NCBI GenBank assembly: GCA_039961635.1 | Contig: JABRWB010000013.1 | Location: 1 to 64,000, forward strand | DNA: 64,000 nucleotides | Reading direction: 5' to 3' | Source of the DNA: a bacterium | Lineage (GTDB): Bacteria; 4484-113; JAGGVC01 | Part shown: one piece after another, positions 54,959 to 63,157 of the stretch | Position numbering within the stretch: the stretch's first letter is position 1 | Layout of the letters: each line of letters begins with the position of its first letter | Position numbers and translations under genes: made by a program | Notes under the pieces: model-generated | Databases searched by the model: none | What the model was told of the DNA's origin: nothing | Seen by the model: the letters and a program-made list of their open reading frames with translations, nothing else

Positions 54959-55306
54959 CTACACCCTCGCCATTCCTTCGGCGCCGAGAAGCTCCGCCAT
55001 GTCGTCGTGAATCGGGATAATCCGGTTCAGAAACGTGATGTCGAAAATGTTGCGCACCGGCGGCGGAACGTTGGAAATGCGCATCTCGAGTCCGTTCTTC
55101 GCGAGAAGCTTCTTGCCGAGAATCAACGTGGATATGCCTTTCGAATCAATGAATTCAAGCTCTCGCAGATTGAGAATCAGGTTCTTGTTGCACTTCTGAA
55201 GGATGTTTATAAACAGCTGGTAGAAGTGATCGTTGTTGACCGCGGTGATCGAACCTGCCACGAAGCAGATCTGCCACTTGTCATGCTCTTCGATTCTTAG
55301 ATGCAT
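54959..55306 (-). CDS. STAS-domain protein, anti-sigma-factor antagonist type
   Basis: STAS proteins of the SpoIIAA/RsbV type bind anti-sigma kinases and are switched by Ser phosphorylation. The roughly 115-residue product has LILNLRELEFIDSKGISTLI, where the Ser after Asp matches the phosphorylated position, and the beta-alpha core continues as expected. No anti-sigma kinase or PP2C phosphatase gene is nearby. ATG 55306 is chosen because a TATAAT at 55335-55340 would start transcription downstream of the alternative GTG at 55333. Confidence 0.85.
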   Translation of the reverse strand: MHLRIEEHDKWQICFVAGSITAVNNDHFYQLFINILQKCNKNLILNLRELEFIDSKGISTLILGKKLLAKNGLEMRISNVPPPVRNIFDITFLNRIIPIHDDMAELLGAEGMARV

Positions 55307-55334
55307 ATCAAACGCCGCCGTTTGAATCGGCACG

Positions 55335-55340
55335 ATTATA
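55335..55340 (-). promoter_or_regulatory. -10 for STAS gene
   Basis: TATAAT on the minus strand, 11 bp past the glycosyltransferase stop, would start transcription near 55328 and leave a leader of about 22 nt before ATG 55306. Confidence 0.5.
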
Positions 55341-55350
55341 CCCTACCGCG

Positions 55351-56688
55351 TCAATCCTGATTTTGGCGATGCGCCACGACTTTTACAATTCCGCGCATCG
55401 CGCGGTAAATCGTTTCCGCGAAACCGCCGGGCGCCGGGCCTTTCCGCAATGAACGCGGCGGCGGCGTGTTCCTCGCCAACTCCAACGCCTGCTCCAGCCT
55501 CGGAAGCACGGTCTCCCACGAATACGACAGCCTAAGTCCCGCCACCGCGGCGCGGTAGTTTTCGCCCCACGCGGCGTCCATCGCGCGGCCCAAAACCCAC
55601 GCGACGTTTTCAGGCTCCAGATTGGTTATCGGCAGCGCCGCGCCGGATTCAATGAGCATTTCGGAAACAACGCCGCCGATGCTCGTCGCAACGGGCACTT
55701 CCGCCGACGCGAAATCGAGCAGCCGCGTCCTGTAAGACAGCTCCGTTTCGAGACCTTGCGGATGAAGGTGCACTCCCAGCGCAGCCCGCTTTAGAACATG
55801 AAAGCGTTGTCTGTGCGGAAGCCACCCGGATACCAAAAGCTCGTCGCCGAGCCCCAACTCCGCGCGAAGCCGCGGAACGCGCGCCGCGGAATTCGATGTC
55901 GCACCGCGGTGTCCCGGATGATCCGCACCCAGCACGACCAGCCCCGCGTCCCTTCCTTCTTTCCTCAGGATTGCGAGCGCGCGGATTACAGGTTCGACGA
56001 GCGTCCATGAATACAGGCCGCCGTTTGTCATCAGCCATTTGCGCCCGGGCGCGGAGTCCATCTTGCGCGCCAGTTCGACGACGTCGTCTGCAAGCCCGGC
56101 GTCGGGGGAAAGTTCGCAGGCGTCCATTCCGTTCGGAAGCTCGACGACGGGAGGCGGGTCGGGGCAGTCCGCGTGCCAGACGTCCGCGGCGGACAACCAG
56201 CCGGTCCAGAAGAGCCGCTGCGAGGGCGACGCGACAAGATACGCGCTCGCGCGCGACGCAACCGCGGCGAAATCACGCGCGAATTCGCGCTCCCACGCGC
56301 GCCGTTTCAGCTCCGGCATTCCCGCGTGGACGTGCCTGTTTTCGAGCATGAAAGGGCATATCAGGTCATGGACGAGCGGGCCGCGGAACGCCTGCAATCC
56401 GGGCAATCCGCGGCGCGCCAGCGTGCCCGCGATTACCGCATCGAATTCGGAATGGAGCGAAAAGAACCGCTCCGGCGCGCGAACCGTGAATCCGTCGTAG
56501 TTGCCCGAGCCGCACCGCGCGAACAATTCCGCGATTATTCCGCTGTCGCGCAGGTGCCGCGCAAATCTCCAAAATCTGATGCCGCCCGCGCCCATCCGAT
56601 CTCCGATCGTTTCGTCGCAGACGAGGGCTATTCGTTTCAGTTCGCCGGGCAACCGCGCATCCCCAAGGCCAGGATTGGCCGCAGCCAT
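55351..56688 (-). CDS. Glycosyltransferase family 4-like protein
   Basis: The 445-residue product has a GT-B fold layout. The N-terminal domain begins RIALVCDETIGDRMGAGGIR, the middle has VVELPNGMDACEL, and the C-terminal domain has LVVLGADHPGHR, LVSGWLPHRQR and LLDFASAEVPVATSIGG, typical of the sugar-nucleotide site of GT4 enzymes. The classical EX7E motif is only partly recognisable (ETELSYRTRLLDFA). Substrate is unknown; cell-surface glycan is likely. Start at the ATG 56688; the conserved region starts within 20 residues. Confidence 0.8.
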   Translation of the reverse strand: MAAANPGLGDARLPGELKRIALVCDETIGDRMGAGGIRFWRFARHLRDSGIIAELFARCGSGNYDGFTVRAPERFFSLHSEFDAVIAGTLARRGLPGLQAFRGPLVHDLICPFMLENRHVHAGMPELKRRAWEREFARDFAAVASRASAYLVASPSQRLFWTGWLSAADVWHADCPDPPPVVELPNGMDACELSPDAGLADDVVELARKMDSAPGRKWLMTNGGLYSWTLVEPVIRALAILRKEGRDAGLVVLGADHPGHRGATSNSAARVPRLRAELGLGDELLVSGWLPHRQRFHVLKRAALGVHLHPQGLETELSYRTRLLDFASAEVPVATSIGGVVSEMLIESGAALPITNLEPENVAWVLGRAMDAAWGENYRAAVAGLRLSYSWETVLPRLEQALELARNTPPPRSLRKGPAPGGFAETIYRAMRGIVKVVAHRQNQD

Positions 56689-56713: not shown

Positions 56714-56744
56714 AAAAAAAAACGCCCCCGTAAATCCGGGGGCG
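56714..56744 (-). terminator. Rho-independent terminator of the HtrA-like cluster
   Basis: On the minus strand an 8-bp perfect stem (CGCCCCCG / CGGGGGCG, 6-nt loop) is followed by nine T residues. It lies 25 bp past the stop of the last protease-like gene and 26 bp upstream of the glycosyltransferase start. Confidence 0.93.
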
Positions 56745-56760
56745 CAAATTTCGAAATTTG
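56745..56760. other. 16-bp perfect palindrome next to terminator
   Basis: CAAATTTCGAAATTTG abuts the terminator stem and precedes the stop codon at 56769 by 8 bp. It resembles the AAATTT-centred palindrome after rho. Confidence 0.45.
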
Positions 56761-56768
56761 AGGATTCG

Positions 56769-57887
56769 CTAGATGTAGTAGATGTAAGAAATCTGCCGTT
56801 CTTCAGGAGCGTTTCCGACTTCGAGCGCGATTTTTTGAATGGCGTTCCGGCGCAGGACGTGGAAAGTTACCACCTGGCCTTCCTTGCAGTTCAGAATGAG
56901 TTTTTCAAGCTGGCCCACCGATTTGATCAGGATTTCGTTGCCGGGGGTGGGCTCGAACTTGATAATCAAGTCGCCTTTTACCAAACCGAACTCGAACGCG
57001 GGGCTCAAACCGTCAACTTCCTGAATCAGCACTCCGACATCCCAGAACTCGTCCGGAAGGTCGAAATACATCCTGATGTCGTCGCCCATCTCCTGCCAGC
57101 GGCCGAACACCTGGTCTATCCTTGCGAAAGGCAGTATTCCGATGTACGGCTTGAACGGACGCTCGCCCGTGGCGATCATCTCCCGGGCGAATTTCATAAC
57201 CAAGTCGGACGGCAGGAAGAAGTTGATGTTCGCCGCGTCGCCGCGAACCGCGCCGACGTTCGAGTGGAATCCGATCATTTCGCCTTTCCAGTTGAAAATC
57301 GGAGCCCCTTGGTTGCCGTCGTTGATCGCGCAATCCGCCTGGATCATCTGCGGGACCAATGCAAGCGAAGTGGTGCGGTAATCACGCTTGGCGCTGACTA
57401 TCCCGTAGGTGACCGTGCCTGTGTAGCCCGCGGAATTGCCTACGCATATAGCACTGTCGCCCTGCGCGACGGTGGCCGGATTGCCCACTGCAATCGGACG
57501 AAGCTTCAGCCCCGTGGGATTCACCTTCAGCAGCGCCAGATCGTAAACCTTGTCCTTGACGATTATCTCGCCGTCGCGCTGGGTGCCGTCGTTGAAAGTC
57601 ACCCTAACCAGGTTGGCGTCGCTCACCACGTATTCCTTGCAAAGGATATGCCCCTTGGTGTCGAGAATGATGCCCGTCCCGATTACGGTGGAAATCGCCT
57701 GCTGGCGCGCTGCGCCGAAAAAGCGCAGTTGAGTGTTCACCACGTTCAGCGCTTCGATGGAAACCAAGGAAGGCGCGACCTTCTTCGCCACGGTTTCGGC
57801 AACGAATTCGCGATCCGAAAACTGCGCGAACGCCGCCGCGGAAAAGGCCAACAAAAAAGCAATCGTCAGTAACGCTGTCTTACGCAT
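56769..57887 (-). CDS. HtrA-like PDZ protein with degenerate triad (pseudoprotease B)
   Basis: The 372-residue exported protein (signal LTIAFLLAFSAAAFAQ) has an S1C trypsin-like fold and a C-terminal PDZ domain (from about 275; SPAFEFGLVKGDLI). At the catalytic positions, His of TNxHVV is Tyr (CKEYVV, Y86), Asp is kept (YDLALLKV, D116) and Ser of GNSGGP is Gln (GNQGAP, Q193). With His and Ser gone it cannot work as a serine protease; binding of substrates or of the neighbours is plausible. It is last in the cluster, 16 bp after the active paralogue. Confidence 0.9.
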   Translation of the reverse strand: MRKTALLTIAFLLAFSAAAFAQFSDREFVAETVAKKVAPSLVSIEALNVVNTQLRFFGAARQQAISTVIGTGIILDTKGHILCKEYVVSDANLVRVTFNDGTQRDGEIIVKDKVYDLALLKVNPTGLKLRPIAVGNPATVAQGDSAICVGNSAGYTGTVTYGIVSAKRDYRTTSLALVPQMIQADCAINDGNQGAPIFNWKGEMIGFHSNVGAVRGDAANINFFLPSDLVMKFAREMIATGERPFKPYIGILPFARIDQVFGRWQEMGDDIRMYFDLPDEFWDVGVLIQEVDGLSPAFEFGLVKGDLIIKFEPTPGNEILIKSVGQLEKLILNCKEGQVVTFHVLRRNAIQKIALEVGNAPEERQISYIYYI

Positions 57888-57903
57888 ATCAGCCTCCCTT
57901 CAC

Positions 57904-59094
57904 CTACACTGAAAACTCGGAATCGTAGTTACGCTTCACGTCCGTTTTAACCTTTATTCTGCTGGTTGTCTCGCCGCGCCTGACGGTGAATTCAATTTCC
58001 TCATCTATCGCGCGTTCGAGAATGTAAACCCTCAAATCTTCCGGCGTTTTAAACTTCATTCCGTTGACCTGGAGTATCTCGTCATTCTTCTTGAATCCCG
58101 CGATGTCCGCGGGCGAGCCCGAGCGCACGCCGAAGACGACGATTTTGTCCTTCGGCCTGTAACGCTCGATGAACTCCGTATACTGGTCTGGATTCCAAAC
58201 GCTCCGCGGGAAGCAGATGTCAAGGCCGATCCACGGCCTTGTCTGATGCCTGATAACCGGCTGGTCAGGCGTTGACTTGAGGATGCTGTAGTAGAACTCC
58301 TTCGCCAGACTGATGGGAATCGCCCAGTTGTGACCCTGGGAGTATGCGCCGCTGCCTCCGAAGAAATTAATTCCGATTACCTCGCCTTTCGAATTGAAAA
58401 GCGGGCCGCCGGAATTGCCGCCCGCGATCGCGGCCTGCAGCCTTATCGCGTAGGTGAAGTTGGTGCCGTACTGGTTGCCGAGCCACAGCACGCCCGATCC
58501 CTGGCTTGTGTTGTAAAGGATCAGCGGAAATTCCATGCTGGTGTCCTTGCCCGCCACGACCCTCACCGTCGCGGATTGTTTCAGACCGAAATTGCCGAGG
58601 GGATCGCTTGGATCCACGTTCAACTGGGTCTGGTCGCCCGGCTGGCCCATCGCAAGCGCAAGCTCTCCCGGAACAACGCTGTCGCTGTCTCCGAGCGGGA
58701 CGGGGTGGATCTTCTCGGGCGGGCATCCTTCGAGGATGCCGATCGCTATGTCGAGGCCGGGATCCACGCCGATCAGGTTGCCCCGGTAAGTCGTGTCATC
58801 CCACAGCGTCACCGATGCGAACGCCGCTCCCTGAAGGACGTGCACGTTGGTCATGAAGTGGCCTTCCTTGCTGATGATGAAGCCGCTTCCGATGCTGCCG
58901 CCCGAAGTTGGAATGACGGATGTGACGGATGCGGGGCTGATCGCCACCACGCCGCGTTTGACCTTTTCGATTATCGCGCTCACGCTTGTCGGGTCTTTTG
59001 AAATCGGCGCGGCAAACGACGGCGCGGCGCACAGCGCAAGAAACGCCGCCGTACCCAATACCGCAAAAGCCTTAATCTCCGGCAATCGCATCAC
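57904..59094 (-). CDS. HtrA-like serine protease, triad intact (paralogue 2)
   Basis: The 396-residue exported protease has signal LGTAAFLALCAAPSFAA, triad H85 (MTNVHVL), D115 (GLDIAIG) and S228 (GGNSGGPLF), and a PDZ domain from about 320 (SGSPADIAGFKKNDEIL). It ends KVKTDVKRNYDSEFSV, identical to the end of the next gene upstream, which shows recent tandem duplication. It is longer in the 180-220 loop (MEFPLILYNTSQGSG) than common HtrA. Periplasmic quality control is the expected role. Confidence 0.92.
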   Translation of the reverse strand: MMRLPEIKAFAVLGTAAFLALCAAPSFAAPISKDPTSVSAIIEKVKRGVVAISPASVTSVIPTSGGSIGSGFIISKEGHFMTNVHVLQGAAFASVTLWDDTTYRGNLIGVDPGLDIAIGILEGCPPEKIHPVPLGDSDSVVPGELALAMGQPGDQTQLNVDPSDPLGNFGLKQSATVRVVAGKDTSMEFPLILYNTSQGSGVLWLGNQYGTNFTYAIRLQAAIAGGNSGGPLFNSKGEVIGINFFGGSGAYSQGHNWAIPISLAKEFYYSILKSTPDQPVIRHQTRPWIGLDICFPRSVWNPDQYTEFIERYRPKDKIVVFGVRSGSPADIAGFKKNDEILQVNGMKFKTPEDLRVYILERAIDEEIEFTVRRGETTSRIKVKTDVKRNYDSEFSV

Positions 59095-59109
59095 TTAACC
59101 TCCAAAACA

Positions 59110-60318
59110 CTAAACGGAAAACTCCGAGTCGTAGTTGCGTTTGACGTCGGTTTTCACCGTAATCCTGCTTGTGGTTTCACCGCGCTTGACGGTGAAAACC
59201 AATTGCTCGTCAATCGCTCTTTCCATCACGTAAATCCTCAAATCCTCGGGCGATTCGAACTTAATCCCGTTGACCTGCAAAATCTCGTCATTCTTTTGGA
59301 AGCCCGCGGCATCCGCGGGCGAATCCTTGCGCACCCCGTACACGATTATTTTGCCCTTGGGTCTGTACCGCTCTCTGAACTCGATGTATTGCGCCGGAGT
59401 GCGCACACTGCTGGGAAACACGATGTCCAATCCGAGCCACGGCCTAGCCTGATGCCGGATGAACGGCCTGTCGGGGCTGGAATCCGCAATGCTGTAATAA
59501 AACTCCTTGGCCAGGTTGATCGGGATCGCCCAGTTGGAGCCCTGACTGACCTCGGTCGAGCCCCCGAGGAAGTTGATTCCGATCACTTCGCCCTTGGAAT
59601 TGAACAGCGGCCCCCCGGAATTGCCTCCCGCAATCGGAGTCTGCATTCGGAGCGAGTATGTGAAATTCGTTCCGTACTGCGTTCCGAAGTTAGCCCCGTA
59701 ATTGACCAGGTAATAGTGGGCCGTTTCCGAACACTGGAGCGGGAATTCCATGCTCGTGTCCTTGCCCGCCACAACCCTGACGGTCGCGGACTGCTTCAGA
59801 CCGAAGTTGCCGAACGGATCGCTCGGATCCACGTTCATCTGGGTCTGGTCTCCCGGCTGGCCCATCGCAAGCGCAAGCTCGCCGGGCTTCACCGCATCGC
59901 TGTCGCCAAGCGGCACGGGAAAGATCTTTTCCTTGGGGCAGCCTTCGAGAATGCCTATCGCGACATCGATTCCCGGATCGACCGCGATGAGGTTTCCCCG
60001 GTACGTCGTGTTGTCCCAAAGCGTCACGGCGGCGAACGCGGCGCCCTGAAGCACGTGCACGTTGGTCATGAAGTGGCCTTCCTTGCTGATGATGAAGCCG
60101 CTTCCGATTGAGCCGCCGGTTCCTTGGATCACTTCCGTCACTTCGGTCGGCGCGATGGCCACCACGCCGCGTTTCACCTTTTCGATGATAGCCGCGACGC
60201 TGGTAGGGTCGGTGGTTTTTGCGGCCGCCGCCGCAGCGCCGGCGAACGCGCATTCAATCAGCGCCGCGGCGAGCGCCGCAAGCGCCGATCTCCCGAACAA
60301 ATTTGCTCTGCCAAACAT
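59110..60318 (-). CDS. HtrA-like serine protease, triad intact (paralogue 1)
   Basis: The 402-residue exported protease has an Ala-rich signal and triad H88 (MTNVHVL), D118 (GIDVAIG) and S234 (GGNSGGPLF). A PDZ domain starts near 325 (KDSPADAAGFQKNDEIL). It is highly similar to the gene 15 bp downstream through most of its length, differing mainly in the signal and in the loop 190-215 (SETAHYYLVNYGANF). The loop difference next to the active site suggests the two have different substrates. Confidence 0.92.
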   Translation of the reverse strand: MFGRANLFGRSALAALAAALIECAFAGAAAAAAKTTDPTSVAAIIEKVKRGVVAIAPTEVTEVIQGTGGSIGSGFIISKEGHFMTNVHVLQGAAFAAVTLWDNTTYRGNLIAVDPGIDVAIGILEGCPKEKIFPVPLGDSDAVKPGELALAMGQPGDQTQMNVDPSDPFGNFGLKQSATVRVVAGKDTSMEFPLQCSETAHYYLVNYGANFGTQYGTNFTYSLRMQTPIAGGNSGGPLFNSKGEVIGINFLGGSTEVSQGSNWAIPINLAKEFYYSIADSSPDRPFIRHQARPWLGLDIVFPSSVRTPAQYIEFRERYRPKGKIIVYGVRKDSPADAAGFQKNDEILQVNGIKFESPEDLRIYVMERAIDEQLVFTVKRGETTSRITVKTDVKRNYDSEFSV

Positions 60319-60502
60319 TTAGATCATCCCCTAGGCCATAAGCACCGGAATCTCACAAAAACGCCCGAAGGATACAAGTACGGCACGCGACCGGTAGCCG
60401 CTATGACCATCGCGGCATGGTTATGTTCCCGCCGGGGTGTCTCCCGGACAAAAACTCGATATTCAACGTACAACCGCGGCAAAGCGGCAAATTCGCGTTG
60501 GT
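60319..60502. other. Gap between pseudoprotease A and the active pair
   Basis: This 184-bp gap is the only sizeable one in the cluster. It holds a GC inverted repeat (CCGG...CCGG near 60440) but no T-run and no strong promoter that I can see. Either a separate promoter for the last three genes or plain read-through is possible. Confidence 0.4.
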
Positions 60503-61654
60503 TTACGGATGCCCCGGCGGCAGTCCGCCGCGGGAAGATGAAGCTGCGGGCTTTTCGGAAGCCTCTTCCAAACTTTCCGGCGTGGGAAGTATCGTGACCA
60601 GCGTTTCGTGCTTGCGCACGCCGCCGCCTTCCTTACGCCAATAAACAACCTTGACCTGCTGGCCGATCTCGAATCTGCGCTTCATGATCGTGAATTCGAT
60701 CAGGTAATCGAATCTTTTGCCGTTGACCGTTTCCACGACGTCGCCGGCCTGGAGACCGGCCAGGTCGGCCGGACTGGCGGGCTCCACATATGTCACGAAC
60801 AGGCCGTCGGTGAAACCGAGCTTGTACGGCGCCTTGTGAAATCCGTTGATCACGTCTATGTTTTCCGAGCGCTCTATCAGGTCGGCGCCGAACCAGGCGA
60901 CGCGCTCGTCGCCCGCGATTATCTTGTCCGCAACCCGAAGCACCTCGTCAATGGGAACCGCAAGGTTCAGGTTGATGCCGGACGTGCCGTAAACCATCCC
61001 GAAAATGTTGCCGTTGACGTCCGCAAGCGCGCCGCCCGTAAAAGTCAGCTCGAAGTTTGCGTCGAACTGAATGAACTCTTCGGTCGGGATATCGCTTCCG
61101 ATGGTGCGCTTGCGTATCGCGCTGACCACGCCCTCGGTCGCGAAAGTATCCTTCGCGTTCAACGAGCGGCCCACAACCGCCGCGGGCATACCCAGCCTGA
61201 TTTTGTCCGAAGGTAGGAAGCTGGGCTGGGGCAGCTTCAGATTGCCAGGTATCTCAAGTTCGAGAACGGCGACGTGGAAAGTCGAGTTTTCTCCCAGAAG
61301 CTTGGCCGGGAACGAGCGCCCGTCGGACAACTCCACCCTGCCAAACTCCATGTACTCGGTGATATCGTCGCATGTCAGAACGTACTTGCCCTTGTACAGA
61401 ATACCGGAGCCGTAAAGCCCGTAAGTAGGGCGCGCGCCGCGAAAAGCATCGTAATAGAGGTAATCGCTGCTGGTCCGCGGCTTGTCGAACCTGGTTTCAA
61501 CCGACACGACAACGGGCGCAAGTTTTTCGGCGGCGCCGTGCACCGCCTTCACAAGATCCCACTTGTCCGTCGCGCCGCTTTGGGCAAAGGCCGCACCTGC
61601 GCAAAAGCTCATAAACAGCGCCGAAAACAGCGCACAGCTCCAAACTCTGCACAT
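60503..61654 (-). CDS. HtrA-like PDZ protein with degenerate triad (pseudoprotease A)
   Basis: The 383-residue exported protein (signal LFSALFMSFCAGAAFAQ) keeps the trypsin-like fold and a PDZ domain (from about 270; ASPADLAGLQAGDVVETV). All three catalytic positions differ: His is Asp (LTCDDIT, D97), Asp is His (FHVAVLEL, H127), Ser is Thr (FTGGALAD, T206). The Pro/Ser-rich tail is extra. It is first of the protease-like genes, 24 bp after proS. A regulatory or substrate-binding role with the active pair is inferred. Confidence 0.88.
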   Translation of the reverse strand: MCRVWSCALFSALFMSFCAGAAFAQSGATDKWDLVKAVHGAAEKLAPVVVSVETRFDKPRTSSDYLYYDAFRGARPTYGLYGSGILYKGKYVLTCDDITEYMEFGRVELSDGRSFPAKLLGENSTFHVAVLELEIPGNLKLPQPSFLPSDKIRLGMPAAVVGRSLNAKDTFATEGVVSAIRKRTIGSDIPTEEFIQFDANFELTFTGGALADVNGNIFGMVYGTSGINLNLAVPIDEVLRVADKIIAGDERVAWFGADLIERSENIDVINGFHKAPYKLGFTDGLFVTYVEPASPADLAGLQAGDVVETVNGKRFDYLIEFTIMKRRFEIGQQVKVVYWRKEGGGVRKHETLVTILPTPESLEEASEKPAASSSRGGLPPGHP

Positions 61655-61678: not shown

Positions 61679-63157
61679 CTAGTAGCTCTGGGCGAAGACC
61701 GCGCGCCTGCGCGCGGGCCTGCCGCTCCAAAAGCATTCCATATTAGCACTTTCGACCGGGTCAAGCAACACGCGGAGAGTGGCGGAAGTTCTTTCTTTAA
61801 TCTCGATTTCCTCCGCCGCGCCGCCTCCCCAATTTACCAGTGCAAATCCCTTGTTTCCGCAGACGACATCCTCGAATTCCTCCCGGCTGGACACCGGAAT
61901 CGTTCGAGCCGAAAGGTCCGCCGCGCTGGCCTGCCGGAGCTTGGCCTGCGCTTCTTCCAGCCGATTGACGAACTCGTCGGGGTTGAAGTTCAAATCGTCG
62001 AAATTGACAGGAATGAAGCCCTTCTCGCCCGTCACCCGCTCGACAACCTTTACCGATTCGTTCTCGACGTCTTTGGGGCCCACCTCGATGCGCAGGGGCA
62101 CGCCCATCATCTCGTACTGATTGAACTTCCATCCGGGCGACTGCTGCTCGCTTGCGTCCAGCTTCACCCGGAGCCGCTTTCCGAACGCCTCGACCCTGCC
62201 GAGCGCCTTGGCCAGCATCTCCGCTTTTTCAAGCACCAGCGCCTTCGTCTTTTCGAATATAATCGGAACGATCACCACCTGTATCGGCGCGACCTTCGGC
62301 GGCAGCCGCAGCCCCGCGTCGTCGCCGTGCATCATGATGAGTCCGCCAACGATGCGCGTGGAAATCCCCCACGAGGTCTGCCAGACGTATTTCTCGACGT
62401 TGTCGTCGTCCAGGAACTTGATGTCGAAGCCCTTGGCGAAGTGCTGGCCGAGGTCGTGGGACGTCCCGCTTTGCAGCGCCTTTCCGTCGGGCATCATCGC
62501 CTCGATCGTGTAGGTCGTGTCAGCGCCGGGGAACTTCTCGCTGTCGCTCTTCGGCCCAGCCAGCACGGCCATCGCCAAATCCTCTTCCGCGAACGCTTTG
62601 TACACGCCGAGCATCTTCAGCGCTTCTTCCTGCGCTTCCTCATGCGTGCGGTGCGCGGTGTGGCCTTCCTGCCAGTGGAATTCGGTCGTCCGCAGGAACG
62701 GTTTGGTCTTCTTCTCCCAGCGCACGATGTTCGCCCACTGGTTGATAAGCACGGGCAGGTCGCGGTAGCTGTTTATCCATTTCGAGTACATGTGGCAGAT
62801 TATCGCTTCGCTGGTGGGCCGGATTGCGAGCTTCTCGGACAGCTCCTCGTCGCCGCCGACCGTCACCCAGGCGACCTGGGGCGCGAACCCCTCCACGTGC
62901 TCGGCTTCCTTCTTGAGAAAGCTCTCCGGGATGAGAAGCGGGAACTGCGCGTTCTCATGGCCGGTCGCGATTATCCGGGCGTTCAGGTGTTCCTTCACGC
63001 TCTCCCAGATCGCCCAGCCGTACGGGCGGATGACCATGCATCCCTTTACGGGCGCGTAGTCCGCGAGTCCGCATCCGAGCACGACGTCCACGTACCACTC
63101 GGACAGGTTCTCGCTTCGTTTGGTGATGAACTTTTTCTCTTCTTGCTGCTTGGCCAC
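61679..63157 (-). CDS. proS: Prolyl-tRNA synthetase, archaeal/eukaryote type
   Basis: The 492-residue class II synthetase lacks the INS editing domain of bacterial-type ProRS and has the short archaeal-type layout. The N-terminal part has SEWYVDVVLG and VIRPYGWAIWE, motif 2 is in FLRTTEFHWQEGHTAH, and motif 3 is near LIMMHGDDAGLRLPP. A C-terminal zinc-like domain ends with the family terminal FAQSY. Only two Cys of the usual four remain there (VCGN, ECFWS). GTG 63157 has GGAG six bases upstream. It is probably cotranscribed with the HtrA-like cluster (24-bp gap). Confidence 0.95.
   Translation of the reverse strand: MAKQQEEKKFITKRSENLSEWYVDVVLGCGLADYAPVKGCMVIRPYGWAIWESVKEHLNARIIATGHENAQFPLLIPESFLKKEAEHVEGFAPQVAWVTVGGDEELSEKLAIRPTSEAIICHMYSKWINSYRDLPVLINQWANIVRWEKKTKPFLRTTEFHWQEGHTAHRTHEEAQEEALKMLGVYKAFAEEDLAMAVLAGPKSDSEKFPGADTTYTIEAMMPDGKALQSGTSHDLGQHFAKGFDIKFLDDDNVEKYVWQTSWGISTRIVGGLIMMHGDDAGLRLPPKVAPIQVVIVPIIFEKTKALVLEKAEMLAKALGRVEAFGKRLRVKLDASEQQSPGWKFNQYEMMGVPLRIEVGPKDVENESVKVVERVTGEKGFIPVNFDDLNFNPDEFVNRLEEAQAKLRQASAADLSARTIPVSSREEFEDVVCGNKGFALVNWGGGAAEEIEIKERTSATLRVLLDPVESANMECFWSGRPARRRAVFAQSY

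Follow-up and report, generated by a model that had tools for sequence, protein, structure and literature searches.

In the textbook view, bacterial HtrA proteases are homo-oligomers whose single type of chain both senses and cleaves. The locus considered here, a tandem run of four HtrA-like genes in a 64,000-nucleotide stretch of bacterial DNA (contig JABRWB010000013.1, positions 1 to 64,000; the window), raises the question of why proteins that have lost the catalytic triad should be encoded, and kept, on either side of members that retain it. The initial annotation was correct in placing four HtrA genes in a row behind proS, on four minus-strand open reading frames whose coordinates were confirmed, and in every triad residue that it assigned to the four proteins, here called A, B, C and D (Table 1).

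The intergenic gaps from proS through A, B and C to D are, in order, 24, 184, 15 and 16 bp, which together with the strong terminator-like site after D is consistent with a single proS-A-B-C-D transcript. The hairpin and its T8 run are the likely end of the operon, and co-transcription of the five genes is read from the spacing. Beyond the operon lie STAS-like and glycosyltransferase-like genes (window 54959-56688), identified by eye and present in the window and G001 only. Pfam Trypsin_2 is matched by all four HtrA-like proteins (52.2, 85.2, 88.5 and 79.5 bits; cut-off 27.6), and each carries a C-terminal PDZ domain (PDZ_2 or PDZ_6) over the curated cut-off, in agreement with the fold and PDZ first attributed to them. 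The nearest solved structures to A, B, C and D are HtrA proteases. The AlphaFold model of D has the HtrA fold, with Deg1 (3qo6) as its best PDB match (E 1e-24), and the predicted structure of C also matches Deg1 (E 7.6e-25), the models used here being of moderate confidence (mean pLDDT 72 and 69); the fold of A is assigned from its sequence only. Hydrophobic N-termini with A-x-A or A-Q ends suggest that all four proteins are exported. B and C are about 75% identical, and the identical last residues noted for them at the outset extend over 15 positions, ending SEFSV. Two more HtrA genes, both with intact triads, are found elsewhere in the 2.78 Mb source genome.

Table 1. Features of the HtrA cluster; positions refer to the window unless a locus is named.
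Feature	Position	Strand	Remarks
proS (prolyl-tRNA synthetase)	61679..63148	-	first gene of the run
A, dead HtrA, 383 aa, trypsin fold and PDZ	60503..61654	-	D97/H127/T206 at the His/Asp/Ser positions
B, active-type HtrA copy 1, 402 aa	59110..60318	-	H88/D118/S234
Expanded LD/L3 activation-loop region of B, 81 residues	59617..59862	-	loop names by homology
C-terminal -FSV of B	59113..59121	-	family-wide -FS[VLI] in the window's phylum
C, active-type HtrA copy 2, 396 aa	57904..59094	-	H85/D115/S228; lineage-specific duplicate of B
Expanded LD/L3 activation-loop region of C, 78 residues	58411..58647	-	loop names by homology
C-terminal -FSV of C	57907..57915	-	family-wide -FS[VLI] in the window's phylum
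D, dead HtrA, 372 aa	56769..57887	-	Y86/D116/Q193
C-terminal -YYI of D	56772..56780	-	family -[YF]F or -[YF]I in the window's phylum
Terminator-like hairpin, 9 bp (8 G-C), then T8	56722..56745	-	directly after D
Low-complexity protein upstream of A	L087 13203-14093; L095 9628-10593; L096 8486-9418		

The state of the triads was compared in an alignment of 75 HtrAs, including 28 control HtrAs that all carry His-Asp/Glu-Ser (28/28). The triad His-Asp-Ser is intact in every cluster-borne B protein (15/15), and the catalytic His and Ser are missing from A in 12/12 clusters and from D in 12/12. At the three triad positions A has D/H/T, F/K/M, I/D/T, F/K/Y, F/D/T, S/D/D, R/G/D or T/S/Q, and D has Y/D/Q, D/D/T, A/G/E, R/G/E, N/G/E, T/G/E, Y/E/Y, G/D/Y, S/N/E or R/D/E. 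It could be argued that A, or D, still cleaves by means of a rebuilt or swapped triad, since Asp, His and Thr occupy the three positions in the A protein of the window and the same letters recur in G001. This swapped arrangement is confined to its own family, however; the His and Asp are not conserved in other A proteins (F/K/M, F/K/Y, I/D/T, S/D/D, R/G/D, T/S/Q), the glycine of the oxyanion hole is gone from 8/8 A proteins of the window's phylum (Thr in the window), and neither A nor D has a His conserved at 80% or more in the family alignments. Alternative residues that rebuild the triad, which the initial annotation had named as a way in which its reading could fail, were thus not found, and the family alignments lead to rejection of a catalytic A or D, a very improbable reading.

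A search of related genomes for the same gene order, as first proposed, recovered A-B-D in 12 clusters from two phyla. Ten genomes of the window's phylum were compared, the named records being metagenome bins, and proS is followed by A, B and D in all eight that have this proS, with the order A-B-B-D in G007. The remaining two, G003 and G009, are both incomplete and do not have this proS; in G003 an A gene is truncated by the end of its contig (L067 1-730) and has no proS directly upstream, and the setting of its cluster may differ from the proS neighbourhood. Apart from one A fragment at a contig edge, A and D were not seen without B. Four genomes have additional B-type genes at sites apart from A and D, arranged as tandem arrays of 3 (L041 8091-12158), 2 (L046 6526-9114), 2 (L044 7683-10351) and 1 (L040 9503-10738), with Glu in place of the triad Asp in three array members, and some relatives of B may therefore work without A and D.

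Tandem HtrAs came to light in G118 and G254 when 289 genomes from across Bacteria were scanned with family models, and in the four genomes sampled from this second phylum (G118, G254, G289 and G290) the order is again A-B-D (4/4), with B doubled in G118, which rules out an oddity of a single phylum. The flanking genes there do not include proS and are gpmI-like and acyl-CoA-dehydrogenase-like, as identified by eye from their N-termini. A low-complexity protein of about 300 aa lies directly upstream of A in three of the four genomes (Table 1). The D reading frame of G289 (L095 5716-6654; 312 aa) lacks an N-terminus and is full-length in the sister G290, so that a frameshift or an assembly error is possible. 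In a further search of 385 genomes, A members scored at least 444 bits and the best non-member 215. Queried with C alone, 84,980 species yielded no relatives; queried with the A-family alignment, they yielded loci of the window's phylum only, the patterns being too specific for the second phylum. PLSDB plasmids gave generic HtrAs only.

In the tree each of A, B and D is a single clade that spans both phyla (bootstrap/SH-aLRT 100/99, 99/95 and 100/99, respectively), and either the three lineages predate the split of the phyla or the whole cluster has been transferred, two origins between which the tree does not choose. The order A-B(-B)-D is kept in 12/12 clusters amid differing flanking genes, and its conservation together with that of the triad state excludes chance. 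The absence of the dead members from relatives, also raised at the outset as a possible sign of recent decay, is not what the genomes contain, with A and D present in every one of the 12 clusters. That A and D might be dying duplicates has nothing in its favour beyond the lost triads, and their intact frames, the age of their clades and their rates of substitution all oppose it: in two close species pairs dN/dS is 0.076 and 0.090 for A and 0.064 and 0.072 for D, level with B (0.083 and 0.096) and proS (0.088 and 0.107). Purifying selection on the dead genes is as strong as on B and proS. Recent decay is refuted by dN/dS and the trees, and its probability is negligible; A and D instead lost catalysis anciently and have been kept by selection since. 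As judged from these sequences, the A-B-D module is one active-type HtrA with two anciently dead, retained paralogues.

The ratio of active to dead members was at first taken to be 1:1. This is so in 3/12 clusters, the window among them, and fails as a general design, in that 9/12 clusters have one active and two dead genes. Duplication of the active gene took place three times independently, in the lineages of the window, G007 and G118, and one active to two dead is for that reason considered the usual ratio. Sequestration is a common role of pseudoenzymes, and with two dead genes for each active one in most clusters it may be asked whether the dead proteins act as inhibitors or decoys, holding activity low by sequestering the substrates of B or by poisoning B trimers. 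This explanation is improbable, in view of the two distinct and separately conserved dead families, which suggest different jobs, and of the remodelled activation loops of B.

The activation-loop region of B is doubled in size. From the Gly that precedes LD to the catalytic-Ser position, a stretch that by homology holds loops LD and L3, B has 73-88 residues (23/23); the corresponding lengths are 44-46 (A), 43-49 (D) and 41-56 (controls), and among these groups the enlargement is confined to B. HtrA1 passes activation from one monomer to its neighbour by coupling of L3 in the first to LD in the second (PMC5666011).

The C-terminal ends are a second candidate point of contact, typical PDZ ligands being short hydrophobic C-termini. 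In the window's phylum B ends in -FS[VLI] (18/18) and D in -[YF]F or -[YF]I (8/8, the end for G006 being taken from its next contig); in the second phylum the ends are -TY (5/5) and -[GS]I (4/4). They are kept within each phylum despite variable preceding residues. A proteins share no common C-terminal end in either phylum. DegS structures with YQF and YRF peptides are present in the PDB, and the last ten residues of the D model are disordered (pLDDT <50). It could also be that each tail motif packs against the protein that bears it. In the window's phylum a canonical HtrA paralogue (L002, L038, L049, L050) likewise has a conserved hydrophobic tail, -[DG][IV]I, and such tails are therefore not unique to the A-B-D module.

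Taken together, co-occurrence, order and selection strongly suggest a partnership, and the reading preferred here, with a probability of about 0.5, is that the dead paralogues assist B without catalysis, by sensing, by recruiting or by activating it, either within mixed oligomers or through the docking of tails into PDZ domains. The products of the module would then be co-expressed, exported and at work jointly as one regulated protease, with the dead paralogues in physical contact with B. Through their own PDZ domains they would sense or recruit ligands, and they would switch B on or off. The most likely route would be mixed oligomers with an L3-to-LD relay between HtrA subunits, in which B, with its enlarged LD/L3 region, would be the subunit adapted to receive the signal; by another route B and D would dock their conserved C-terminal tails into partner PDZ domains. 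A stricter form can be advanced only tentatively, namely an obligate three-part hetero-oligomer of two pseudoprotease subunits and one protease, joined by tail-PDZ docking and the expanded LD/L3 loops, in which sensing and substrate selection would fall to the dead subunits and cleavage to the live one.

DegP, DegQ, DegS and HhoA resemble the cluster in their trypsin-like domain with PDZ and N-terminal export signal, with B keeping the triad, but they are single, self-sufficient homo-oligomeric products with no dead partners and with short LD/L3 loops; membership of DegP/DegQ (TIGR02037) was rejected at 125, 151, 153 and 191 bits against a curated subfamily score of 416. The early assumption that HtrA proteins form only homo-oligomers does not hold, as the Arabidopsis paralogues Deg5 and Deg8 form hetero-oligomers at 1:1 (PMC4877387, PMC3640471), although, unlike in the A-B-D set, both triads are intact and Deg5 has no PDZ. 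Inactive cyanobacterial Deg genes (Nostoc, Anabaena) encode HtrA homologues with mutated protease domains, but these are reported as isolated divergent genes and not as a conserved dead-active-dead set (PMC4877387). No description of such a set was found in a literature search outside which most subscription journals lay. The initial annotation went too far, however, in holding that nothing similar had been described. The closest precedent is MamE/MamO, where, likewise, an active protease of HtrA type is encoded together with a pseudoprotease paralogue; MamO, with its degenerate triad, is needed non-catalytically for MamE-dependent proteolysis and activates MamE (PMC4794232). MamO differs in its di-His metal site and its TauE-like transporter domain, and in being one dead member per active one. 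The present cluster lies outside any magnetosome island and has dead members of two families, both of which carry a PDZ domain and lack a conserved His; against a cut-off of 800 bits, NCBIfam NF040961 (MamO) gave 38 at most, and membership was rejected.

The MamE/MamO pair also bears on how far gene pairing can be read, because no physical interaction between the two had been detected (PMC4794232), and pairing is therefore no proof of hetero-oligomers. A and D might accordingly be repurposed, independent periplasmic proteins, such as chaperones, ligand or metal binders, or scaffolds, that share an operon with B and neither mix with nor regulate it. The residues of their pseudo-active sites vary freely, as expected if only fold and PDZ matter, and MamO itself has a second, metal-binding role (PMC4794232). 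A MamO-type di-His metal site is nonetheless unlikely in A or D, as judged from the lack of a His conserved at 80% or more in the family alignments, and strict co-occurrence and order in 12 clusters of two phyla with different flanks weigh against unrelated tasks. Independent roles are on balance unlikely, if less so than decoys, and dead paralogues that serve B remain the preferred account.

The A-B-D module adds a clear case of pseudoproteases held by selection over very long times. If the stricter, three-part reading is true, the split of sensing and cutting between subunits would be a division of labour not found described for bacterial HtrA proteases in the literature searched. Questions about individual subunits have so far rested mainly on engineered variants and on the MamE/MamO pair, and with live and dead subunits separated in a conserved natural set, sensing, recruiting and cutting could each be traced to a particular subunit by genetically defined tests.
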